Assembly: GCA_021292105.1 (NCBI GenBank)
Contig: CM037862.1
Span: forward strand, 690,501 to 754,500
Origin: Anadara kagoshimensis
Lineage: Eukaryota > Mollusca > Bivalvia > Arcoida > Arcidae
Direction: 5' to 3'
DNA: 64,000 nucleotides
This document shows, piece by piece, positions 15,314 through 63,742 of the stretch; position 1 is the stretch's first letter, and every line of letters starts with the position of its first letter. The position numbers and the translations under genes are program-made. A model generated the notes under the pieces. That model made no database searches. It had not been told where the DNA came from and saw only the letters and a list, made by a program, of their open reading frames with translations.

Positions 15314-18300
15314 GACTTCGGACGGATGCACAAGGTTACAATACTCCAAACACTTCGGACGGACACTCAAGAACACAAATTAATACTCCGAACACTTCGG
15401 GCGGACACTTAAGAACACAAGGTTACAATACTCCGAACACTTCGGACGGATACACAGGGTTACAATACTCCGAACACTTCGGACGGACACTCAAGAACAT
15501 AAGTTTACAATACTCCGAACACTTCGGACGGACACTCAAGAACACAAGGTTACAATACTCCGAACACTTTGGACGGACACTCAAAAACACGAAGTAACAA
15601 TACTCCGAACACTTCGGGCTGACACTCAAGAACACAAGGTTACAATACTCCGAACACTTCGGACGGACACTCAAAAACACGAAGTAACAATACTCCGAAC
15701 ACTTCGTACGGACACTCAAGAACACAAGGTTACAATACTCCGTACACTTCGGACGGACACTCAAAAACACAAGGTTACAATACTCCGAACACTTCAGTCG
15801 GATACTCAAGAACACAAGGTTACAATACTCCGAACACTTCGGACGTACACTCGAGAACACAAGGTTACAATACTCCGAACACTTCGGTCGGACACTCAAG
15901 AACACAAGGTTACAATACTCCGAACACTTCGGACGGACACTCAAGAACACAAGGTTACAATACTCCGAACACTTCGGACAGACACTCGAGAACACAAGGT
16001 TACAATACTCCGAACACTTCAGTCGGATACTCAAGAACACAAGGTTACAATACTCCGAACACTTCGGACGTACACTCGAGAACACAAGGTTACAATACTC
16101 CGAACACTTCGGTCGGACACTCAAAACACAAGGTTACAATACTCCGAACACTTCGGACGGACACTCAAGAACACAAGGTTACAATACTCAGAACACTTCG
16201 TATGGACGCTCAAGAACACAAGGTTACAATATTCCGAACACTTCGTATGGACGCTCAAGAACACAAGGTTACAATATTCCGAACACTTCGGTCGGACACT
16301 CAAGAACACAAGGTTACAATACTCCGAACACTTCGGACGTACACTCGAGAACACAAGGTTACAATACTCCGAACACTTCGGTCGGACACTTAAGAACACA
16401 AGGTTACAATACTCCGAACACTTCGGACGGATACACAGGGTTACAATACTCCGAACACTTCGGACGGACACTCAAGAACACAAGGTTACAATACTCCGAA
16501 CACTTCGGACGGACACTCAAGAACACAAGGTTACAATACTCCGAACACTTTGGACGGACACTCAAAAACACGAAGTAACAATACTCCGAACACTTCGGGC
16601 TGACACTCAAGAACACAAGGTTACAATACTCCGAACACTTCGGACGGACACTCAAAAACACGAAGTAACAATACTCCGAACACTTCGTACGGACACTCAA
16701 GAACACAAGGTTACAATACTCCGTACACTTCGGACGGACACTCAAAAACACAAGGTTACAATACTCCGAACACTTCGGACGGACACTCAAAAACACGAAG
16801 TAACAATACTCCGAACACTTCGGACAGACACTCGAGAACACAAGGTTACAATACTCCGAACACTTCAGTCGGATGCTCAAGAACACAAGGTTACAATACT
16901 CCGAACACTTCGGACGTACACTCGAGAACACAAGGTTACAATACTCCGAACACTTCGGTCGGACACTCAAGAACACAAGGTTACAATACTCCGAACACTT
17001 CGGACGGACACTCAAGAACACAAGGTTACAATACTCAGAACACTTCGTATGGACGCTCAAGAACACAAGGTTACAATATTCCGAACACTTCGTATGGACG
17101 CTCAAGAACACAAGGTTACAATATTCCGAACACTTCGGTCGGACACTCAAGAACACAAGGTTACAATACTCCGAACACTTCGGACGTACACTCGAGAACA
17201 CAAGGTTACAATACTCCGAACACTTCGGTCGGACACTCAAGAACACAAGGTTACAATATTCCGAACACTTCGTATGGACGCTCAAGAACACAAGGTTACA
17301 ATATTCCGAACACTTCGGTCGGACACTCAAGAACACAAAGTTACGATACTCCGAACACTTCGGACGTACACTCGAGAACACAAGGTTACAATACTCCGAA
17401 CACTTCGGTCGGACACTCAAGAACACAAGGTTACAATACTCTGAACACTTCGGACGGACGCTCAAGAACACAAGGTTACAATACTCCGAACACTTCGGTC
17501 GGACACTCAAGAACACAAGGTTACAATACTCCGAACACTTCGGACGGACACTCAAGAACACAAGGTTACAATACTCAGAACATTTCGTATGGACGCTCAA
17601 GAACACAAGGTTACAATATTCCGAACACTTCGTATGGACGCTGAAGAACACAAGGTTACAATATTCCGAACACTTCGGTCGGACACTCAAGAACACAAGG
17701 TTACAATACTCCGAACACTTCGGACGTACACTCGAGAACACAAGGTTACAATACTCCGAACACTTCGGTCGGACACTTAAGAACACAAGGTTACAATACT
17801 CCGAACACTTCGGACGGATACACAGGGTTACAATACTCCGAACACTTCGGACGGACACTCAAGAACACAAGGTTACAATACTCCGAACACTTCGGACGGA
17901 CACTCAAGAACACAAGGTTACAATACTCCGAACACTTTGGACGGACACTCAAAAAAACACGAAGTAACAATACTCCGAACACTTCGGGCTGACACTCAAG
18001 AACACAAGGTTACAATACTCCGAACACTTCGGACGGACACTCAAAAACACGAAGTAACAATACTCCGAACACTTCGTACGGACACTCAAGAACACAAGGT
18101 TACAATACTCCGTACACTTCGGACGGACACTCAAAAACACAAGGTTACAATACTCCGAACACTTCGGACGGACACTCAAAAACACGAAGTAACAATACTC
18201 CGAACACTTCGGACAGACACTCGAGAACACAAGGTTACAATACTCCGAACACTTCAGTCGGATACTCAAGAACACAAGGTTACAATACTCCGAACACTTC

Positions 18301-19055
18301 GGACGTACACTCGAGAACACAAGGTTACAATACTCCGAACACTTCGGTCGGACACTCAAGAACACAAGGTTACAATACTCCGAACACTTTGGACGGACAC
18401 TCAAGAACACAAGGTTACAATACTCAGAACACTTCGTATGGACGCTCAAGAACACAAGGTTACAATATTCCGAACACTTCGTATGGACGCTCAAGAACAC
18501 AAGGTTACAATATTCCGAACACTTCGGTCGGACACTCAAGAACACAAGGTTACAATACTCCGAACACTTCGGACGTACACTCGAGAACACAAGGTTACAA
18601 TACTCCGAACACTTCGGTCGGACACTCAAGAACACAAGGTTACAATATTCCGAACACTTCGTATGGACGCTCAAGAACACAAGGTTACAATATTCCGAAC
18701 ACTTCGGTCGGACACTCAAGAACACAAAGTTACGATACTCCGAACACTTCGGACGTACACTCGAGAACACAAGGTTACAATACTCCGAACACTTCGGTCG
18801 GACACTCAAGAACACAAGGTTACAATACTCTGAACACTTCGGACGGACGCTCAAGAACACAAGGTTACAATACTCCGAACACTTCGGTCGGACACTCAAG
18901 AACACAAAATTACAAACTCCGAACACTTCGGTCGGACACTCAAGAACACAAGGTTACAATACTCCGAACACTTCGGACGTACATTCAAGAACACAAGGTT
19001 ACAATACTCCCAACACTTCGGTCGGACACTCAAGAACACAAAGTTACAATACTCA
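15314..19055. repeat. 45-bp minisatellite array, about 83 units, with long block duplications
   Basis: The unit is made of ACAAGGTTACAATACTCCG, AACACTTCGGACGGACACTC and AAGAAC. Units differ at a few positions (GGACGGACA, GTCGGACAC, GTATGGACG, GGACGTACA; AAGAAC or CGAGAAC). The order of variants repeats in blocks. A landmark unit beginning GACACTTAAG and followed by a shortened GGATACACAGGG unit starts at about 15,404, 16,385 and 17,772, so blocks are about 0.98 and 1.39 kb. Because 45 is a multiple of three and the unit lacks stops in several frames, long repetitive open frames appear on both strands. They are not treated as genes. A decayed outlying copy lies at about 19,118-19,165. Confidence 0.95.
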
Positions 19056-28910: not shown

Positions 28911-31900
28911 TTGGACATAATTGTAATGTTTGTATTTACTTTGACTTGGTATTGAGGTTTGGACATGATTGTAATGTTTGTTTTTACTTTTTTTGGTATT
29001 GTGGTTTGGACATAATTGTAATGTTTGTTTTTACTTTGATTTGGTAGTGTGGTTTGGACATGATTGTAATGTGTGTTTTAACTTTGATTTGGTAGTGTGG
29101 TTTGGACATAATTGTAATGTTTGTTTTTACTTTGATTTGGAATTGTGCTTTGGACATGATTGTAATGTTTGTTTTTATTTTGCTTTGGAAGTGTGATTTG
29201 GACATAATTGTAATGTTTGTTTTTACTTTGATTTGGTAGTGTGGTTTGGACATAATTGTAATGTTTGTTTTTAATTTGCTTTGGTATCGTGATTTGGACA
29301 TAATTGTAATGTTTGTTTTTACTTTGATTTGGAATTGTGCTTTGGACATGATTGTAATGTTTGTTTTTATTTTGCTTTGGTATTGAGGTTTGGACATGAT
29401 TGTAATGTTTGTTTTTACTTTTATCTGGTAGTATGGTTTGGACATGATTGTAATGTTTGTTTTTATTTTGCTTTGGAAGTGTGATTTGGACATAATTGTA
29501 ATGTGTGTTTTAACTTTGCTTTGGTATTGTGGTTTGGACATGATTGTAATGTTTGTTTTTATTTTGCTTTGGAAGTGTGATTTGGACATAATTGTAATGT
29601 GTGTTTTAACTTTGCTTTGGTATTGTGGTTTGGACATGATTGTAATGTTTGTTTTTATTTTGCTTTGGAAGTGTGATTTGGACATAATTGTAATGTGTGT
29701 TTTAACTTTGCTTTGGTATTGTGGTTTGGACATGACTGTAATGTTTGTTTTTACTTTGATGTGGTATTGTGGTTTGGACATGATTGTAATATTTGTTTTT
29801 ACTTTGATTTGGTATTGTGGTTTGGACATGATTGTAATATTTGTTTTTACTTTGATTTGGTATTGTGGTTTGGACATGATTGTAATATTGTTTTTACTTT
29901 GATGTGGTATTGTGGTTTGGACATGATTGTAATATTTGTTTTTACTTTGATTTGGTATTGTGGTTTGGACATGATTGTAATATTTGTTTTTACTTTGATT
30001 TGGTATTGTGGTTTGGACATGATTGTAATATTTGTTTTTACTTTGATGTGGTATTGTGGTTTGGACATGATTGTAATATTTGTTTTTACTTTGATTTGGT
30101 ATTGTGGTTTGGACATGACTGTAATGTTTGTTTTTACTTTGCTTTGGTATTGTGGTTTGGACATGATTGTAATATTTGTTTTTACTTTGATCTGGTAGTG
30201 TGGTTTGGACATGATTGTAATGTTTGTTTTTATTTTGCTTTGGAAGTGTGATTTGGACATAATTGTAATGTGTGTTTTTACTTTGATTTGGAAGTGTGGT
30301 TTGGACATGATTGTAATGTTTCTTTTTATTTTGCTTTAGTTTGTTTTTACTTTGCTTTGGTATTGTGGTTTGGACATGATTGTAATATTTGTTTTTACTT
30401 TGATCTGGTAGTGTGGTTTGGACATGATTGTAATGTTTGTTTTTATTTTGCTTTGGAAGTGTGATTTGGACATAATTGTAATGTGTGTTTTTACTTTGAT
30501 CTGGTAGTGTGGTTTGGACATGATTGTAATGTTTCTTTTTATTTTGCTTTAGTATTGTGATTTGGTATTGTAGTTTGGACATGACTGTAATGTGTGTTTT
30601 TACTTTGATTTGGTATTGTGGTTTGGACATGACTGTAATGTGTGTTTTTACTTTGATTTGGTATTGTGGTTTGGACATGGCTGTAATGTGTGTTTTTACT
30701 TTGATTTGGTAGTGTGGTTTGGACATGATTGTAATATTTGTTTTTACTTTGATCTGGTAGTGTGGTTTGGACATGATTGTAATATTTGTTTTTACTTTGA
30801 TCTGGTAGTGTGGTTTGGACATGATTGTAATGTTTGTTTTTATTTTGCTTTGGAAGTGTGATTTGGACATAATTGTAATGTGTGTTTTTACTTTGATTTG
30901 GAAGTGTGGTTTGGACAGGATTGTAATGTTTGTTTTTATTTTGCTTTAGTATTGTGATTATGACATAATTGTAATGTTTGTTTTTACTTTGCTTTGGTAT
31001 TGTGGTTTGGACATGACTGTAATGTTTGTTTTTACTTTGCTTTGGTATTGTGGTTTGGACATGACTGTAATGTTTGTTTTACTTTACTTTGGTATTGTGG
31101 TTTGGACATGACTGTAATGTTTGTTTTACTTTACTTTGGTATTGTGGTTTGGACATGACTGTAATGTTTGTTTTGACTTTGATTTGGTATTGTAGTTTGG
31201 ACATGACTGTAATGTGTGTTTTTACTTTGATTTGGTATTGTGGTTTGGACATGACTGTAATGTGTGTTTTTACTTTGATTTGGTATTGTGGTTTGGACAT
31301 GACTGTAATGTGTGTTTTACTTTGATTTGGTATTATAGTTTAGACATGACTGTAATGTTTGTTTTTACTTTGATGTGGTAGTGTGGTTTGGACATGATTG
31401 TAATATTTGTTTTTACTTTGATCTGGTAGTGTGGTTTGGACATAATTGTAATGTTTGTTCTACTTTGCTTTGGTATTGTGGTTTGGACATGATTGTAATA
31501 TTTGTTTTTACTTTGATCTGGTAGTGTGGTTTGGACATGATTGTAATGCTTGTTTTTATTTTGCTTTGGAAGTGTGATTTGGACATAATTGTAATGTGTG
31601 TTTTTACTTTGATTTGGAAGTGTGGTTTGGACATGATTGTAATATTTGTTTTTACTTTGATCTGGTAGTGTGGTTTGGACATAATTGTAATGTTTGTTCT
31701 ACTTTGCTTTGGTATTGTGGTTTGGACATGATTGTAATATTTGTTTTTACTTTGATCTGGTAGTGTGGTTTGGACATGATTGTAATGCTTGTTTTTATTT
31801 TGCTTTGGAAGTGTGATTTGGACATAATTGTAATGTGTGTTTTTACTTTGCTTTGGTATTGTGGTTTGGACATGATTGTAATATTTGTTTTTACTTTGAT

Positions 31901-34458
31901 CTGGTAGTGTGGTTTGGACATGATTGTAATGTTTGTTTTTATTTTACTTTGGAAGTGTGATTTGGACATAATTGTAATGTTTGTTTTACTTTACTTTGGT
32001 ATTGTGGTTTGGACATGACTGTAATGTTTGTTTTACTTTACTTTGGTATTGTGGTTTGGACATGACTGTAATGTTTGTTTTTACTTTGCTTTGGTATTGT
32101 AGTTTGGACATGACTGTAATGTGTGTTTTTACTTTGATTTGGTATTGTAGTTTAGACATGACTGTAATGTTTGTTTTTATTTTGCTTTGGTATTGTGGTT
32201 TGGACATGACTGTAATGTGTGTTTTTAATTTGATTTGGTATTGTGGTTTGGACATGACTGTAATGTTTGTTTTTACTTTGATTTGGTATTGTGGTTTGGA
32301 CATGACTGTAATGTGTGTTTTTAATTTGATTTGGTATTGTAGTTTAAACATGACTGTAATGCTTGTTTTTACTTTGATTTGGTATTGAGGTTTGGACATG
32401 ATTGTAATGTTTGTTTTTATTTTGCTTTGGTATTGTAGTTTGGACATGACTGTAATGTTTGTTTTTACTTTGATTTGGTATTGTAGTTTGGACATGACTG
32501 TAATGTTTGTTTTTACTTTGATTTGGTATTGTGGTTTGGACATGACTGTAATGTTTGTTTTTACTTTGATTTGGTAGTGTGGTTTGGACATGACTGTAAT
32601 GTGTGTTTTTAATTTGATTTGGTATTGTAGTTTGGACATGACTGTAATGTGTGTTTTTAATTTGATTTGGTATTGTAGTTTGGACATGACTGTAATGTTT
32701 GTTTTTACTTTGATTTGGTATTGTAGTTTAGACATGACTGTAATGTTTGTTTTAACTTTGCTTTGGTATTGTGGTTTGGACATGATTGTAATATTAGTTT
32801 TTACTTTGATCTGGTAGTGTGGTTTGGACATGATTGTAATGTTTGTTTTTATTTTGCTTTGGAAGTGTGATTTGGACATAATTGTAATGTGTGTTTTTAC
32901 TTTGATTTGGAAGTGTGGTTTGGACATGATTGTAATGTTTGTTTTTATTTTGCTTTGGAAGTGTGATTTGGACATAATTGTAATGTTTGTTTTACTTTAC
33001 TTTGGTATTGTGGTTTGGACATGACTGTAATGTTTGTTTTACTTTACTTTGGTATTGTGGTTTGGACATGACTGTAATGTTTGTTTTTACTTTGATTTGG
33101 TATTGTAGTTTGGACATGACTGTAATGTGTGTTTTTACTTTGATTTGGTATTGTAGTTTAGACATGACTGTAATGTTTGTTTTTACTTTGATTTGGTATT
33201 GTAGTTTGGACATGACTTTAATGTGTGTTTTTACTTTGATTTGGTATTGTAGTTTGGACATGACTGTAATGTTTGTTTTTACTTTGATTTGGTATTGTGG
33301 TTTGGACATGACTGTAATGTTTGTTTTTACTTTGATTTGGTATTGTGGTTTGGACATGACTGTAATGTGTGTTTTTAATTTGATTTGGTATTGTAGTTTG
33401 GACATGACTGTAATGTTTTTTTTACTTTGATTTGGTATTGTAGTTTGGACATGACTGTAATGTTTGTTTTTACTTTGATTTGGTATTGTAGTTTAGACAT
33501 GACTGTAATGTTTGTTTTTATTTTGATTTGGTATTGTAGTTTAGACATGACTGCAATGTTTGTTTTACTTTACTTTGGTATTGTGGTTTGGACATGACAG
33601 TAATGTTTGTTTTTACTTTGATTTGGTATTGTAGTTTGGACATGACTGTAATGTTTGTTTTTACTTTAATTTGGTAGTGTGGTTTGGGAATGATTCTAAT
33701 CTTTGTTTTTACTTTGATTTGGAAGTGTGGTTTGGACATGACTGTAATGTTTGTTTTTATTTTGCTTTGGTATTGTGATTTGGACATAATTGTAATGTGT
33801 GTTTTTACTTGCTTTGGTATTGTGGTTTGGACATGACTGTAATGTTTGTTTTACTTTACTTTGGTATTGTGGTTTGGACATGACTGTAATGTTTGTTTTT
33901 ACTTTGATTTGGTATTGTAGTTTGGACATGACTGTAATGTGTGTTTTTACTTTGATTTGGTATTGTAGTTTGGACATAATTGTAATGTTTGTTTTTACTT
34001 TGATTTGGTATTGTAGTTTGGACATGACTGTAATGTGTGTTTTTACTTTGATTTGGTATTGTGGTTTGGACATAATTGTAATGTTTGTTTTTACTTTGAT
34101 TTGGTAGTGTGGTTTGGGAATGATTGTAATGTTTGTTTTTATTTTGCTTTGCTATTGTGGTTTGGACATGACTGTAATGTTTGTTTTTATTTTGCGTTGG
34201 TATAGTGATTTGGACATAATTATAATGTTTGTTTTTACTTTGATTTAGTAGTGTGGTTTGGACATGACTGTAATGTTTGTTTTTACTTTGATTTGGTATT
34301 GTAGTTTGGACATGATTGTAATGTTTGTTTTTACTTTGCTTTGGTATTGTGGTTTGGACATGACTGTAATGTTTGTTTTTACTTTGATTTGGTATTGTAG
34401 TTTGGACATGACTGTAATGTTTGTTTTTACTTTGATTTCGTATTGTGATTTGGACATT
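28911..34458. repeat. 48-bp satellite array, about 115 units, strongly G+T-rich on the plus strand
   Basis: The unit is GGACATGATTGTAATGTTTG, TTTTTACTTTGATTTGGTAT and TGTGGTTT. Variants include CATGACTG or CATAATTG, TGTGTG for TGTTTG, TTTGCTTTGG, and TATTTTGCTTTGGAAGTGTGA. Only about two of 48 bases are C on the plus strand. Variant order is repeated in blocks, for example around 31,440-31,680 and 31,680-31,970. As 48 is a multiple of three and the unit lacks stops in several frames, open frames of up to about 630 codons arise. They are a by-product of the repeat, not genes. Confidence 0.95.
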
Positions 34459-36436
34459 GATTGAGTACTATGTTTGCTTATGATTACTCCTAGGAACTCT
34501 ATCTGTCGACAGCAGACATCAAATTTATAATGATGCAGTGTTTTGACGAATAGAACATCAGGCTGGGTATTATAACTGCAGTTCATTGATTACGTGTGGT
34601 TAACTTTAACTTGAATTAAATGTCTCTAAGAGGATTGTGGCCATTTCAGATACATGTCACTAACTTTGGTTCCTTATATACACGGTACCATAAAACACTT
34701 TTCAAGAAACCGAGAATCAAAACGATACAACTGATCTATTTCTTAAAGACAACACAAAGGACAATACACTTAGCTTGACATTCGGGTTTCAAAGGACCTC
34801 CGTGCGTTATATACAATGGTTTGTGTCTCAGGACCTCCACGAGCTGTATACAGTGGTTTGTATCTCAAAATTTAATCTCATTTAGAGACACAAATTCAGA
34901 TAGACAAATCGTTCATTGATTGTTGAGAAGACCAAAATATATATGAAGTAAGATAGGATTACCTAAACAGATTTATCATCTAACTATGTAACAGATCATC
35001 GATAGTCTGGCGTAACTCTATATAATACCAGTCTGGTGTAACTCTATATAATACCAGTCTGGTGTAACTGATATTAAACAGCTTTGTGATGTCTCGATAT
35101 TATAAACTTAACTTAACAAAAAAAAATAGAAGAAAAAAAAGAAAATAATCGTTACTAAGGAACATTGTTCTTTGGTAAGTGAGTTGTCTTGTCATTATTT
35201 CTTATCCAGTCCTATATAAAACACATAATTATCAGATGAATTCTCAAACCAGGATAAACCCCTTTATGTTTGATGTCATAAACCAAGATTCAGATTCAAC
35301 TAGTGATTCAAAGAGTATTTTTAAAACCGTGATATTAAATTCTGAAAAATCACTAGAAAGATAGTGTCAATCTAAATAGTCTGTTTTCGTAATACAAAAA
35401 TTAAAAGATATATATATATATATATATAGTATTAATGAGACAGAAAACAGAAATAAAAATTGAAAATAATGATACAAGCATCAAATCTTGCGCAATTGTT
35501 CTCCAAAGGAATTCTTAAAGGCCTTTTAAGCTTTTTGTTCTGTTACGGGGTTCTTCATTGTTTGCTCTGTTCGTTGTTTGCTGCATAACAGCGTTCTTGA
35601 ATGCATTGTTTGTTGGGTAAAGACGTTTTACTTGTTTGCTCTGTTACGGGATTCTGATAATGTGGTGCCGTTCTTGATTGTTTCGGCCATTACCAATTAC
35701 GAGGTTTTCAGATACAACTTCATAAAAATGCATATTCTATTTTCAATATGTTGTTTTCTTGGTTGTTATAAACAGTTCAATAAAGGTTGCTATATAAGTG
35801 GATGTTCAGAAACTAAGGAACCATTACAAGCTTAATTAGTTTGACCTAAAGCAACATTATTCCAGATTATTGCTGGTATAATGGAACTTTAACACGCGTG
35901 ATGAATCAATAATGCAATTTTACACGCTGATCAAGTTGTTTATGCATCTCTGTGGAGCACTGACAGACTTAATTTGTTCAACTTAAGTTGTAATATATCC
36001 AGTAACAACAGAATGTTACAGACGGAAATACAACAACCTGATAGAATAACGGTCTTCTCTAGCTCCCAATAGTCACGAGTAATCAATGTCTAATCTAACT
36101 CAATATCATGTCTAAGTTTTATGCTACCTTGTAGATATTTGAATTTTTTTCTTCAGAAAATGTTTCCAAGGACGTGACATTATTTATAATTACTTGTATA
36201 AAAATCTGTAACAGTGTGTCATTTTGTAGGCGTGTGATTGATACAGAGGGTCTACATTTGTTGCTGACTCAGTTGGTCTTGGATCAGAATGATATGTCAG
36301 TCAAGTCATCAAGGGTATAGGACCAAGTAGAAGATCGGACGATAAGTTTTCAATGTTTTACATGTACTAGTTGGAGCTTTAAGATGGTGCACTCAGTAGA
36401 TTAAAGGTACGCTTTTTTATTCATTTATTTATTTAT
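34459..36436. other. Intergenic with short tandem duplications
   Basis: A ~27-bp word (GTCTGGTGTAACTCTATATA) is repeated 2-3 times at about 35,007-35,068. A ~36-bp word (AGGACCTCC...GGTTTGT.TCTCA) occurs twice at 34,793-34,867. A (TA)10 tract lies at 35,408-35,428. No gene is supported; open frames at 35,179 and 35,578 lack recognisable domains. Confidence 0.5.
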
Positions 36437-54269: not shown

Positions 54270-57200
54270 TTATCTCGCAAAACGTTTTGATTGTAAAATA
54301 AATTCTTGCACAGAAAGGAAAATTTCTTCGTTTTGTTCATTAGATAACATGGGGTCACCATACAATAATTTATCAATATTTAAGACATAAGGAAGTGTAT
54401 TAATAGTTCTTAAACGAATATTATCAAATAACTGACAAAATAAAAGAAAATGTCTTGAATTTTCTATATGTCCACAACGACAATAGGGATCATCAACTAA
54501 ATTTTTGTTAAACAAATGACATTTCAAGGAACTACATTCTAATCTAAGTCTTGCGTGAAGTATTTGTCCCATTCGACATCCACAGCTGAAATAATTAGGT
54601 ATTTTGACGCTAGTGTCTAAAAACGTTTTAAAGACTGTTAAGGAGTTATGTTTAATGTCGTTAGGGATGTCATTCCAATCTCTTATAACAGAAGGTAAAA
54701 ATGAATTAAAATAAGAAGATGTTCTACAGAGAATACTTTGGAAATTTTGGGAGCCTCGTGTGTTGTGCGAATGAATATCATTATAAGATGGTGGAACAAG
54801 ATTTGATAAATAAGTAGGAGCCAAGTTTTGATTCATTTTATAAAACTGTATTAACTTGTGGTTATTTCTTCTTTTAGCCAAAGTCTCCCACCCTGTTTCG
54901 ATATATAATAATTGGATACTCGTTAGTTTTGTAGCCCCACAGACAATACGGGCGGCTTCGATGTTTATGTTTTCAATTCTTTGCTTTAAAATTTCGGATA
55001 TATTATCCCAGACAATATCACCATATTCAAGCAACGGCCTAATAAAACTAAAATATATTTTTTCCAAAACGTTACGTGATAGGATAAACTTGTATTTTCT
55101 TAAAATGTATATTCTGAATTTAGCTTTAGCTTCAATAGTTTCGATATGTTTTTCCCATGAAAAATCAGAAGCGAAAGTTAAACCCAAGTGTTTATGTTCA
55201 TCAACGTCGTGAATTAACGTTCCGTTCATATAAAGACTAGGATGAAAAGGTTGTTTTGATTTTCTAGATATTAGCATAGTTTCTGTTTTGCTTGGGTTAA
55301 AAGATACCAACCATTTCTTTGACCATACATTTATTTTTTCTAAATTGTCATTGAGTAATGATGCTGATTGAAAAGGATCATCAACAATACAGTAAAGTGT
55401 AGTGTCGTCAGCAAAAAGTCTAATCTTACAGTTTATATCTGTGACAATGTCATTTATATATATTAAAATAATATTGGACCCAGTATTGACCCTTGTGGTA
55501 CACCGGCATTTATATTTAACCACTCAGAAGTGCTGTTTTTGATTACGACTCTGTTACGACGATTAGAAAGATAGTTTTCAAACCATAAAAGTAAATTACC
55601 CGATATACCTATTGAACGCAATTTTATTAATAGGCCCGCATGCCATACCCTGTCGAAAGCCTTACTTATGTCACAGAAAATTATTCGAACCTCTTTGCCT
55701 GAATCAAGAGCTTTGACAACGTCGTTAGATATATCAAGAAGTTGACAGACAGTAGAATCGCCAGTTCTAAAACCAGATTGTAGATTTGTGATAATATTGT
55801 TTTCTAACAGGAATACATTGAGATACTTAAGAACACATTTTTCAAAAACTTTACCAAGAATATTACAAAGAGAAATTGGTCTGTAATTTTTTACATCGCT
55901 GGGATCGCCTTTTTTATATAACGGAATTACATTCGCGTCTTTCCAACAGTTCGGAAAAATACTATTACTGAGTAATTTGTTAAACAATTTTGTTATGGGT
56001 AAACACAATTCGTTGCATGCATATTTAAGTAGTCGCGGATTAATAAGATCCGGACCACAAGCTTTAGATACGTCTAAAGATAACAAAATTTGTCGAACAT
56101 CATCAATTTTAAGTTCAATATTTTCAAGTACAATGTTTGGTGTGTTACATCGAGGTATGTTTATATTAGTGTCGTCAATAATAGACTGTTTACAAAAATA
56201 TTCATTTAATATGTTTACTTTTTTATCATCATCGTCGTAAAGTTTATTGTTGTAAAATAAGGGCGGTATTGAATCCTTTTTATGTTTATTGTTAATACAG
56301 AGTTTAGCAATTCGCCACCAAGATTTAGAGGATATATTGTTTTCGCGCAAGTCGTTCGCCAATTTATTAATATAATCTTTTTTCGCGTTTCGTATAGCAG
56401 TAACACACTTATTTCTGATTTCTCTGAATGCGGTCCAGTGATTAACTAAGTTTGTTTTCTTCGCTCTACTGTGAAATCGGCGGCGCTTTCTGATCATTCG
56501 TTTAATATTGCACTTGATCCATGGTTTATCGTTTTCCCTTATAGTGACGACTTTATTCGGTATACATTCTGTAGCGATTTTTAAAATGATATTAGAGATA
56601 TTTAGAGAAGATTGGTTTAAATCAAGATTGTTCAAGATATTATCCCAGTCGGTTTGTGATATTTTTTGTCTATATAGATCATAATTTCCATTTTTATAGT
56701 CCCAGATTTTTCGTGTAAATGTCTTATTAGTTGGTTTTTCTATACTTAAAACTAAAAAAATGGGACAATGATACCGTGTATTTACTTCACAAAAGGTTTC
56801 ACAAATACCACAACATTCAACAGGAGTATTTTCAGTAACTATAAATAAGTCTATGAGTGAACAAGAATGTTCTGTGTAATGAGTAGGTTCATTAATTAAC
56901 TGAGTAAAATTAAAATTTAATAACAAATCGTTAATATTACTAGTTGGATATTTAAACTGATCTTCATTAAAATCGCCAGTAATAACAATATAATCGTGTT
57001 TACATTCTGAAGCCAGTTCTATTGAATATTCTATTTCTTGCCAAGATGTGTTGGCATCAGGTGGCCTGTAGAAGGCACCCAGTAAAATTACTTTACCCTT
57101 AACGGTCAGTTCACACCAAAGACATTCTATATTTTGAACCTGTAATTCGGGCTTGTGTTTAAAGTATAGCGAATCATTTATATATATAATAACACCTCCT

Positions 57201-57916
57201 CCTAGTCTCGCTTCTCTATCGCGTCTTATCGGTTCGTGGTATCCGTCTAGACATATATCTGAAGTTAATATTGAAGGGTTGAGCCAAGTTTCAGTGAAAA
57301 TTAGGACGTCAAACTGGCTAGATTCACTATTGATTAAGTCGATTTTGGGTAGCAAGCTTTGTATGTTAAGATGCATAAAGGATAAATATTTATTTGACAA
57401 TATGTCGATATTTAAACTTGTATTCGAACTAGCTGTATTAGTATGCTTGTCGTCGTATACAGGGCCAGGGTTTTTTTCAACATCACCAGATATATAAAGT
57501 ATACTTTGTAAACATGTTTTTGCTAATGCAAGATAAAAAATATCGAGTATAAAATGGTATAAACACACAGGTATTTTTACATGATAACGGTTTAACATGT
57601 GACAACTTATTACTGAGTATATACTACTGATATAACCATAAACACAATGGTTATATATGCATTTATACACAGTCACTAACAATGGTAACATCAATATATG
57701 GTCATTACAAATACGCACAGAATAACATAGTATACACAAAACGGAAAATAAATTTAAAATTTTCAAATAACAACTAATAAGTAACAACAAAGTAACATAT
57801 TTAAAACTATTCGTCCAGACGACATTAGCATTAGAACAAATTGAATATTCTAAATATATTCTAGATGAGTTGAAGAGGCCAATTCTTGCACGATGTGTGT
57901 GTAGTGACACAGGCAT
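54270..57916 (-). pseudogene. LINE ORF2 (2A motif, endonuclease, reverse transcriptase), frameshifted
   Basis: The first frame runs 57916-55463 (817 residues) and the second 55523-54270. Order: hydrophobic leader (1-140), a 2A motif with its cleavage between G151 and P152, then an APE-like endonuclease (about 175-400: HLNIQSLLPK, TETWL, YRPP, GDFNED). The reverse transcriptase starts near 660 (NYRPISL, FCDISKAFDRVWH at 747-759, GVPQGSILGP at 805-814). The frame breaks right after GPILF by loss of one base in a short T run. The second frame resumes at LIYINDIV and contains the catalytic FADD, then a C-terminal knuckle CRCGHIENSRHFLLFC. Apart from the break, the reverse-transcriptase motifs are intact, so the copy is young. 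Confidence 0.9.
57461..57493 (-). other. 2A-type ribosome-skipping motif in ORF2
   Basis: Residues 142-152 of ORF2 read ISGDVEKNPGP, an exact match to the D-V/I-E-x-N-P-G-P consensus. In known 2A peptides the ribosome fails to join the last glycine and proline, releasing the upstream peptide while translation continues. Here it would separate a hydrophobic ~151-residue leader from the endonuclease-reverse transcriptase. 2A-like motifs are known from APE-type LINEs of trypanosomes and of some marine invertebrates, so the placement is credible. Activity is not shown by sequence alone. Confidence 0.85.
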
Positions 57917-58158
57917 TAAGTGATACCAGGATAAAAAATATAACGAGGTATGTGCAAAAAGGCCAAAACAACTATCAACATGATACTATGCAGTTCATCA
58001 ATGTGAACATTTAATAATGTATTAGGTACAATATACACCCACAATGTACAATTGGAAAAATAAGGAAAAAAGTGAAAGAAAAAGTAAAAAATATAAACTA
58101 AACTGTGAAAAAGTGTTGTAAAATACAATATCAAAAAAAGAACAAAAACTATGTACAT
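57916..58158 (-). other. Small hydrophobic open frame ending in a TAATG overlap with ORF2
   Basis: An 80-codon frame very rich in F, L, I, Y and V with two or three potential membrane segments. Its TAA stop overlaps the ATG proposed for ORF2 (TAATG). Stop-start overlaps of this form are used for reinitiation in the SART1 LINE, so coupling is conceivable. The AT-rich composition alone could also produce such a peptide. Confidence 0.3.
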
Positions 58159-58530
58159 CAGATTGTGTGATGGAATAATCGAAGACCTTGTTATCGATCG
58201 AGGGATCGGTGTTAGTATACATACGTAATTTATTATGAGGACTTGTATATGATTGCATTACATATGTGAAGATCGACCAAGGTAAACTGGCGCGCTGTTA
58301 ACTATCTCACAAAAATGACAGTTATACATGAAGAATGTATATAAATTGTATTAATTTGAAACAAAAAAATATCGCAATTTCTTGACTTTGTGTTTTCTGA
58401 GGTCGTAAACAACACGCCACCTTACCACGGTCGACTTATAAACAAAATTTATTGTTGATTATTAAAATACAATTAAAAGTCATTTATTGGTAGACCACAC
58501 TGGTTAGCTAGGCGTCAGTAAACTGGGTGT
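58159..58530 (-). other. LINE inter-ORF sequence
   Basis: About 370 bases between the ORF1 stop and the small hydrophobic frame, AT-rich and without a supported coding frame. Confidence 0.4.
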
Positions 58531-59417
58531 TCAATGGATACGAACAGCATATAAGTCATTAAGTACTATTTGATGCGACTGCGGCGTACGATGGACCAGA
58601 ATTGTGTTGTTGTTCCATTGGAATAGTTTGTAACTTAAAGGGATCCAAGTCGCTTTCGTTGTCGATACGGTATTTTTTGTCGTTTTTGTCCGATATGAAA
58701 TTTTTCCGTCCCATGTCCATGTTTTATTTACAAGTTTTTCTTTGTATAATTGCCTAGCCTTTGTGTATAATGACTGCCTTCTCTTTGTTAAATCTTCATT
58801 AATGAAGATATCCTTGCTCGAGGAGTTCTTCTTTAGCTCCACCGTGACTTCATTATTTTGCGCTTGAGGTTATAACGGGTAAACTTAACTAAGATTTGTC
58901 TAGGACGGTTGAGACCTGGTTTTCCTGATCTATGTGATCTACTTATGTCCTCGTCGCATACTTCAACACCCATTTTAGTAACGATGTCTCTCACGATGTC
59001 ATCTGTATTCTCCCCAGTTTGTTCGGGAACACCCGATATGCGGACAGCATTACGCCTGCCGTATTGCTCGAGCTCGTCAATACAGAGCTTGAGCTCCTGG
59101 TTTTCATTTCGAAGTATTTGGTTTTCATTTTTAAGAGTATTTACTTCTTTACTTAATTCTTTAAGATAGGAATCTAATGCCTGATTGACAGTACTTAAAA
59201 TTTCATTTTGGAGAGAATCTTTTACTGCTAAGGCTATGCGCTGTATGTCGGTTTCATTTAATGTATATTGATAAACCTTTTGTTCCTCCGTGTTACTCAT
59301 AGTTACGTTTAGATATGTAGTATTGTCGGAATTTGATGGTTCTAGGCTGAGATTCGTAAATCTCCGACGTCGTTTCTTATTTCTACTTTCTACGTTTTGA
59401 AAATTGTCGGACATCAC
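58531..59417 (-). pseudogene. LINE ORF1 (coiled coil plus RNA-binding domain), frameshifted
   Basis: The first frame runs 59417-58833 (194 residues) and the second 58842-58531 (103 residues). The first has a basic stretch (NKKRRRRF, 13-20), a leucine/asparagine-rich coiled coil (about 84-118) and the start of an RRM-like fold, LEQYGRRNAVRISGVPE (116-132), as in L1-type ORF1 proteins. The second continues with the usual C-terminal domain (FINEDLTKRRQSLYTKARQL). The frames overlap by about ten bases, and the break falls where other family members read straight through. No obvious slippery heptamer supports programmed shifting. ORF1 proteins trimerise and bind the element RNA. Confidence 0.82.
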
Positions 59418-62735: not shown

Positions 62736-63742
62736 CACCTCTGCTGGTGGCTGGTGCCCCGAGGATATCACCAACTCAGTAGGCAATAATTTTGTATTAT
62801 TGTCAGAAATATACTATAATTGTCTAAATTTCCTGAAAGTTAAAATTTGAAATTTCTCAAAAACTAAGGTATACTCCCTCATGCAAAGTATTCCCTTAGC
62901 TTAATTTGGTAAAATATATTTTGGTCCTTTGGGTAAGTTTTCAACATCTTCAAAAAAATTTGGTTTCATAATTTTGGTCCAAGCACTACTGATGAGGAAT
63001 TGTATTCCGAAACGGCCGTCTAGTTCTGTAAAAATTAAAACTGATATAATATGGAATTTAAACCCCTGAGCCGATATCTCTGCTGGTGGCTGGTGCCCCG
63101 AGGATATCACCAACCCAGTAGGCAATAATTTTGTACTATTGTCAGAAATATACTATAATTGTCTAAATTTCCTGAAAGTTCAAATTTGAAATTTCTCAAA
63201 AACTAAGGTATACTCCCTCATGCAAAGTATTCCCTTAGCTTAATTTGGTAAAATATATTTTGGTCCTTTGGGTAAGTTTTCAACATCTTCAAAAACATTA
63301 GGTTTCATAATTTTGGTCCAAGCACTACTGATGAGAAATTGTATTCCGAAACGGCCGTCTAGTGCTGTAAAAATTAAAACTGGTATAATATGGAATTTAA
63401 ACCCCTGAGCCAATATCTCTGCTGGTGGCTGGTGCCCCGATGATATCACCAACTCAGTAGGCAATAATTTTGTATTATTGTCAGAAATATACTATAATTG
63501 TCTAAATTTCCTGAAAGTTAAAATTTGAAATTTCTCAAAAACTAAGGCCCGGGTATACTCCTTCATGCAAAGTGTTCCCTTAGCTTAATTTGGTAAAATA
63601 TATTTTGGTCCTTTGGGTAAGTTTTCAACATCTTCAAAAAAATTTGGTTTCATTATTTTGGTCCAAGCACTACTAATGAGGAATTGTATTCCGAAACGGC
63701 CGTCTAGTGCTGTAAAAATTAAAACTGGTATAATATGGAATG
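62736..63742. repeat. 339-bp tandem repeat, three copies
   Basis: CTCTGCTGGTGGCTGGTGCC recurs at 62739, 63078 and 63417, exactly 339 apart. Units are about 97 per cent alike by eye; the third has a six-base insertion (GCCCGG) at about 63,547 and is cut short at 63,742. On the minus strand each full unit has a pyrimidine-rich acceptor-like tract ending TTTTACAG, followed by an open stretch DGRFGIQFLISSAWTKIMKP and then LPKGPKYILPN and a stop. That is exon-like, but its identity is unknown. Confidence 0.93.

Follow-up and report, generated by a model that had tools for sequence, protein, structure and literature searches.

Our analyses point, with moderate confidence, to a two-part polyprotein encoded by ORF2 in a group of related LINE families of the APE type. 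In these families, a leader of about 104–152 residues would be followed by a 2A (StopGo) sequence and then by the endonuclease and reverse transcriptase (RT), and ribosome skipping at the 2A would free the enzyme and leave the leader probably in a membrane. One such element is present in the window (viz. the whole stretch of 64,000 nucleotides that was analyzed). In comparisons among eight families, the pN/pS values are well below 1 at the two ends of the leader, viz. a short block at its start and the 2A core, and about 1 just inside them; hence, the start block and the 2A are held as protein while the middle drifts. The constraint upon both ends around a hydrophobic middle that is almost free speaks for a genuine additional LINE protein and not for a relic, and on these sequence comparisons the leader probably is such a protein.

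The Element in the Window

ORF2 of the window copy was identified by an open frame scan as an ATG-initiated frame of 817 amino acids (aa) on the reverse strand (57916..55463). Its leader consists of residues 1–143 (MPVSLHTHRARIGLF...LQSILYIS; 57488..57916, reverse strand), of which the first 15 constitute the N-terminal block (57872..57916, reverse strand), and the 2A core GDVEKNPG|P, with a predicted break between G151 and P152, occupies residues 144–152 (57461..57487, reverse strand). An earlier examination of the sequence (referred to below as the first-pass annotation) had reported ISGDVEKNPGP at residues 142–152 (57461–57493, reverse strand), followed by an APE-type endonuclease and an RT. 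This was confirmed by the open frame of ORF2, by Pfam and by a six-frame scan of the whole window, in which ISGDVEKNPGP was the sole match to NPGP or D[VI]ExNP. The window ORF2 carries the D[V/I]ExNPGP that forms the C-terminal part of 2A sequences, and this core is directly preceded by LALAKTCLQSILYIS in the window and by [LI]LYxS in four of the families (A–D, the window copy being a member of family D). Downstream of the core, an APE-type endonuclease (Pfam Exo_endo_phos, residues 184–370; 56807..57367, reverse strand; E 1.1e-8) is followed by the first part of the RT (Pfam RVT_1, residues 669–817; 55466..55912, reverse strand; E 4.3e-23), which is the domain order of APE-type LINEs, and the RT part matches the RTs of LINE-1 and R2 (PDB). 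The element may be CR1/L2-like.

The frame of ORF2 breaks within the RT domain and its remainder is found in another frame as far as 54270. This C-terminal part, 335 aa from its first ATG (CRCG...HFLLFC; 54270..55277, reverse strand), has a single Pfam match (PRANC, 0.068) that is below the cut-off for that family, and no RNase H was matched in it by Pfam. A T-rich stretch with simple repeats lies 3' of the element. The first 192 codons of ORF1 (58839..59414, reverse strand) show coiled-coil-like matches and an L1 RBD-like match (E 0.17), all of them below the Pfam cut-offs, and the frame of ORF1 is broken beyond about 58839. In view of the breaks in both ORF1 and ORF2, the window copy is dead as it stands. 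As is characteristic of a LINE, the element is multicopy and dispersed over contigs C1–C19, with many partial copies (among the best 150 of 456 candidates). No relatives were detected by tblastn (E ≤ 1e-3) or blastn (E ≤ 1e-5) in the surrounding 200 kb (20 loci of 10 kb), nor was NPGP or D[VI]ExNP matched there in any of the six frames; in a search of viral_contigs for relatives, two stretches fitted a pattern and none was confirmed.

The window also contains a number of tandem arrays. One of these, at 62739–63741, has a 339-base unit in 2.9 copies with a 96% match. The long ORFs at 16873–17967 (forward strand), 28984–30870 (reverse strand) and 31986–32975 (reverse strand) sit in other arrays, with a 45-base unit at 15329–19054 and 48/96-base units at 28911–34463, and they are probably satellite-like DNA and not genes.

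Occurrence of the 2A Motif in the Genome

Within the genome that was searched (1.115 Gb in 36 contigs), a codon pattern for GDVEKNPG had 48 matches and the pattern D[V/I/M]ExNPGP had 132 sites, compared with none for the reversed form of either pattern. A chance motif is ruled out by the latter control. The broken ORF1 and ORF2 of the window copy could suggest that these elements are nonfunctional, decayed copies in which the motif arose by chance, and this is exceedingly improbable in view of the 132 sites, of the near-identical leaders of family A that are found in ORFs of about 1200 aa, and of the constraint upon the motif between families.

Since both pattern searches select for the motif, a separate search was carried out with the endonuclease part of ORF2, using a query that starts at P152, with which the motif ends, and the best 150 of 456 candidates were scored. 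The first 100 of the 132 motif places were compared with these matches, so that the comparison covers contigs C1–C15; only matches with a query start of 30 or less were considered, and the expected place of the motif was defined as within 150 nt. Of 89 endonuclease matches on C1–C15 that were found in this manner without recourse to the motif (from the best 150 of 456), 56 have it at the expected place, which bears out its recurrence. The further expectation from the first-pass annotation, that other copies keep the motif, depends upon their similarity to the window copy: in the same sample, the motif is present in 56 of the 77 matches with an endonuclease identity of at least 41%, and the exact motif is absent from the other 21 and from all 12 matches at 37–38% identity, although an apparent miss may hide a displaced motif, such as the one about 600 bases away at C8:53042809. 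The window's own family (endonuclease identity of at least 96%) has the exact motif in 6 of 8 distinct copies (among the best 150 of 456 candidates).

Two loci that lack the exact motif are visibly decayed, and they read GDVEKNSGP (L054) and, after a frame break, GDIHKNPGP (L057). A third locus, L059 (C14:18791380–18791930; 38% endonuclease identity), reads GCIEINPGP, with C replacing D, after a leader of about 41 codons, and matches similar to it have open frames of up to 1109 aa; it provides a natural test of the D position in the 2A motif.

Other occurrences of the motif were also observed. Among the D[VIM]ExNPGP places listed on C1–C15, 41 of 97 are without a counted endonuclease match; some of these belong to fragments that fall outside the count, and others may be other elements or host genes that use 2A. 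At L048 (C9:7375562–7375584), GDVEKNPGP is located in a 230-codon frame for which no Pfam match above the cut-off and no resemblance to a LINE were seen, and which is maybe part of a host gene or of another mobile element. Decayed relatives (about 70% endonuclease identity) are clustered on both strands within 2 Mb at C14:60.36–62.25 Mb, where some pairs score identically, as if by segmental or inverted duplication.

Open Frame and Amino Acid Constraint in the Leader

For comparisons between families, one best-preserved copy was chosen to represent each of eight families (viz. D, B, A, E, M, G, C, and H). None of the eight representatives has a stop in the 104–152 codons upstream of the GDxExNPGP core. 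Among 20,000 Markov-1 sequences of the same composition, the number that were free of stops was 2 for D, 0 for B, 4 for A, 2 for C, 0 for E, 41 for M, 2 for G and 15 for H; a separate run for the window leader gave 0 of 20,000, and a model of the leader together with 1 kb upstream gave 3 of 20,000. When the motif-bearing copies of families A–D were read, the leader was found to be wholly open in 14 of 31 (5 of 14 in A, 2 of 6 in B, 4 of 5 in C, and 3 of 6 in D). The absence of stops from the leaders of other copies, on which the first-pass annotation had made its reading depend, holds for the representatives and for these 14 copies; the other 17 are truncated or broken, as is usual for LINEs. 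Among 43 matches in family A, ten leaders span residues 1–151 without stops, and four of these ten sit in ORFs of 1185–1212 aa; the family M leader lies within an ORF of 1245 aa. Leader, 2A and endonuclease share one open frame at these long loci and, to judge from the length of the ORFs, the RT would be present in them as well.

Full-length homologues of the leader, with 29–40% identity, were detected in other families by protein search, and the leader had no match in Pfam at E ≤ 1. In an alignment of the eight families, M1, R9, G13 and the core G-D-x-E-x-N-P-G-P are invariant, and the leader starts with MPVS in six of them. The pN/pS values, pooled over all 28 family pairs, are 0.46 for codons 1–15, 0.28 for codons 8–13 ([Y/H]R[A/V/L][R/S][I/T]G) and 0.12 for the last nine codons, which make up the 2A core; the corresponding values are 1.07 for codons 16–25 and 1.01 for the twelve codons that precede the last 18. 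The first-pass annotation had looked to conservation of both leader and motif with a ratio below 1, and in the comparison between families this is seen at the two ends of the leader and not just inside them. [Aromatic]RxR is an arginine-based ER-retention motif to which the [Y/H]R[A/V/L]R of the N-terminal block could be compared, a reading that we leave as speculation because family A reads YRVS.

Within families, the leader shows 27 nonsynonymous changes, 16 synonymous changes and 1 stop, with transitions accounting for 30 of the 44. Depending upon the transition bias that is assumed, its pN/pS is 0.49–0.67 (p 0.021, 0.061, and 0.14) and is significant only when no such bias is allowed for. 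Downstream of the 2A there are 91 nonsynonymous changes, 72 synonymous changes and 11 stops (pN/pS 0.34–0.49), and the leader does not differ significantly from this region in the within-family comparison (Fisher p 0.49). The 2A core was excluded from the within-family values, as the copies had been chosen by it.

Hydrophobicity of the Leader

Two 19-residue segments of the window leader (residues 45–63 and 113–131) have a mean Kyte-Doolittle value of at least 1.6. Segments of this kind number three in families A, B and C and two in D, and the best 19-residue window reaches at least 1.77 in all eight families. However, the hydrophobicity of the leader in families A–D is no more than its own T-rich composition predicts: the fraction of own-composition simulations that were as hydrophobic or more so was 0.10 for A, 0.37 for B, 0.23 for C and 0.72 for D, and two runs for the window leader gave 69% and 72%. 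In the eight families, the coding frame has a hydrophobicity of 0.99 compared with 0.78 for the other two frames (Wilcoxon p 0.08). The hydrophobic leader may be a membrane or secretory signal, as was suggested in the first-pass annotation: the segments are present, but with no excess over composition in families A–D and with a marginal difference from the other frames.

These results also bear on the possibility that a working 2A frees the endonuclease-RT and that the leader is merely a translated spacer, in which case selection would keep the frame open and preserve both the start block (for initiation) and the 2A, and the hydrophobicity would be a by-product of T-rich sequence. We consider this to be possible, although we would not expect it. 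The Kyte-Doolittle means that match the simulations of own composition are consistent with it, as is the composition of the leader in the window copy, which is close to that of the upstream inter-ORF DNA and has little codon-position asymmetry. The middle of the leader is, in addition, near-saturated and mostly unalignable, and the pN/pS values just inside both ends are about 1. However, the second codon position of the leader is enriched in T (0.48 vs. 0.405, p 0.016, eight families), which is expected if hydrophobic residues are favored, and the hydrophobicity of the window leader surpasses that of 96% of the sequences modelled on the leader and 1 kb upstream. A mere spacer would likewise not be expected to retain similarity through the middle, which stands out against shuffled peptides in the pairs D-E (z 4.0), B-E (z 3.1), D-M (z 3.0) and G-H (z 2.9; at most 2.2 in the remaining 24 of 28 family pairs), or a pre-core length of 140–152 codons in 6 of the 8 families. 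Acidic residues are not depleted in the leaders of the eight families (0.028 vs. 0.030). It is possible that hydrophobicity in itself is under selection.

The first hydrophobic segment begins at residue 33–45 in families A–D. A classical cleavable signal peptide is disfavored by this late beginning, and the leader would appear to be closer to a signal-anchor.

The Start Region of ORF2

Of the 9 families that were compared (family F being represented by the decayed L057), 8 have a GGTATNACTTAA-like motif whose stop codon overlaps the start codon of ORF2 or lies shortly upstream of it. In the window it reads GGTATCACTTAA (57916..57927, reverse strand), the TAA of which overlaps the ATG of ORF2 as UAAUG. 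The motif has the general form GGT-[A/G]TN-A[C/T]N-TAA before the ATG and is absent from family H. Relative to the ATG, the TAA is located at −2 in B, D and E (UAAUG), −3 in C, −4 in A, −5 in M, −9 in F and −15 in G, which has an additional TAA at −2. Pairwise identity per column averages 0.74 over the 12 bases preceding the TAA, compared with 0.38 over the next 18 bases upstream; the motif was sought as a TAA with GG nine bases upstream, and hence the two G columns agree by construction and part of the 0.74 arises in the same way. Neither this stop-start motif nor the N-terminal block was listed in the first-pass annotation. A splice-site reading of the start region was also considered and rejected, as CAG follows the ATG in A, B, E and M and is absent in D, G, C and H.

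The frame that ends in the TAA of the motif is open for 113 codons in D (from 58257), 160 in B (L028), 91 in A (L023) and 69 in C, for which the simulated P values are 0.003, 0.0045, 0.009 and 0.027, respectively. It is short in L031, L027 and L042 (25, 23, and 30 codons), and its protein shows weak similarity from one family to another (best P 0.037 of six pairs). Between ORF1 and ORF2, an open frame that is T-rich and hydrophobic was observed in the window (57916–58257, reverse strand), L028, L023 and L033; in each of four families, at least one copy has the stop of this inter-ORF frame overlapping or just preceding the start codon of ORF2. In the window, a possible small hydrophobic ORF of 80 aa from the first ATG (57916..58158, reverse strand) could be read from it, and a small extra ORF coupled to ORF2 is a lead that these frames can do no more than suggest.

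The stop-start motif suggests that translation may reinitiate at ORF2, and UAAUG termination-reinitiation is described for the LINE SART1 in the available text of PMC5972666. On this precedent, the start region could be mainly a feature of the RNA, in which the T-rich inter-ORF stretch and the motif link the translation of ORF2 to that of the upstream ORF through termination-reinitiation, with the N-terminal block retained for the sake of this coupling. The position of the TAA between −15 and −2 in 8 of 9 families and the length of the upstream frames in D, B, A and C are in accordance with such a reading; nevertheless, we regard it as unlikely. Differences between families within the N-terminal block are predominantly synonymous (pS 0.73 vs. 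pN 0.33), and the block is therefore held as protein; families C and D encode their shared RARIG by a different codon at every residue. The shortness of the upstream frame in three loci, the lack of clear conservation in its protein and the absence of the motif from family H also count against it.

Proposed Mechanism

In the reading that we favor, viz. that of a two-part polyprotein, ribosomes would start at the ATG of ORF2, most likely by termination-reinitiation or internal entry near the GGTATNACTTAA-like motif. They would produce a leader in which the conserved N-terminal block, containing one or two arginines, precedes the hydrophobic segments (two or three in families A–D), and this leader would probably be inserted in a membrane, most likely that of the ER. 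Once the leader has been synthesized, the bond between Gly151 and Pro152 would be skipped, and the endonuclease-RT would be released as a free protein with an N-terminal proline; where skipping fails, the endonuclease-RT would stay tethered to the membrane. Skipping at G151-P152, with the leader as a separate peptide, is very likely, and the entry of the leader into a membrane has about an even chance. The leader may have a role in retrotransposition.

Given the length of the ribosomal exit tunnel, the segment at residues 45–63 would have emerged long before translation arrives at the 2A, and the ribosome could therefore be docked at the time of skipping. Translocation of some upstream sequences into the ER inhibits the activity of 2A, as the available text of PMC2978324 indicates, so that skipping in these elements could be partial; this inhibition, described for artificial polyproteins, would then gain a natural setting in which it could be measured. 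The L-rich stretch before the F2A motif packs as a hydrophobic cluster in the exit tunnel, according to the available text of PMC12846837. A more extended form of the proposal, which is doubtful, is that the LINE makes three to four proteins (viz. ORF1, perhaps the small hydrophobic ORF, the membrane peptide released by the 2A, with its conserved [Y/H]R[A/V/L][R/S] block, and the free endonuclease-RT) and that, through the leader, the LINE RNA is docked during its translation at the ER or nuclear envelope, where the 2A frees the enzyme close to the RNA that encodes it. If this is true, there would be a membrane step within the LINE life cycle.

Comparison with Known Systems

Sequences resembling 2A have reportedly been described in non-LTR retrotransposons of the APE type by Odon et al. 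in 2013, and one such sequence is said to have been described in L1Tc of Trypanosoma cruzi by Heras et al. in 2006; either work may already describe similar leaders. As in those APE-type LINE 2As, the elements described here carry D[V/I]ExNPGP within the reading frame of LINE proteins that are expected to be separated by skipping. Judging from the portions of the literature available, both 2A in LINEs and 2A signal sequences have already been published. A conserved LINE leader of the present kind was not found among the titles and abstracts searched, which did not include Odon 2013, and we do not claim its absence from print.

The 2A signal sequences of the sea-urchin NLRs resemble the present arrangement in the combination of an N-terminal sequence with a 2A, which is active there and predicted here, and they are described in the available text as giving two fates to the downstream protein (Roulston et al., 2016; PMC4981915). 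The two-fate idea, which the first-pass annotation had put forward for this LINE, is here an analogy, as it is for the sea-urchin sequences that it has been published. By this analogy, the leader could be a 2A signal sequence for dual targeting, in which incomplete skipping deliberately sends some of the endonuclease-RT to the secretory pathway. The demonstration of this mechanism for the SpNLR 2A signal and the inhibition of 2A by ER translocation lend the idea some plausibility. However, it is quite improbable for these elements: a LINE enzyme acts on chromosomes, we know of no reason for its secretion, and the first hydrophobic segment of the leader begins only at residue 33–45 (families A–D). 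In the sea-urchin NLRs, which are immune receptors, the signal and the 2A together occupy the N-terminal 26 aa, according to the available text of PMC4981915, whereas here a leader of 104–152 codons precedes the 2A of a LINE, and the core in the window is located at residues 144–152; the present arrangement does not belong to the sea-urchin class. The start region may be compared with that of SART1 (Kojima et al., 2005, as cited in the available text of PMC5972666), which has a UAAUG stop-start overlap like that of families B, D and E. However, the stop in SART1 belongs to ORF1, whereas the stop in the present elements terminates a separate inter-ORF frame that is not open in every copy.
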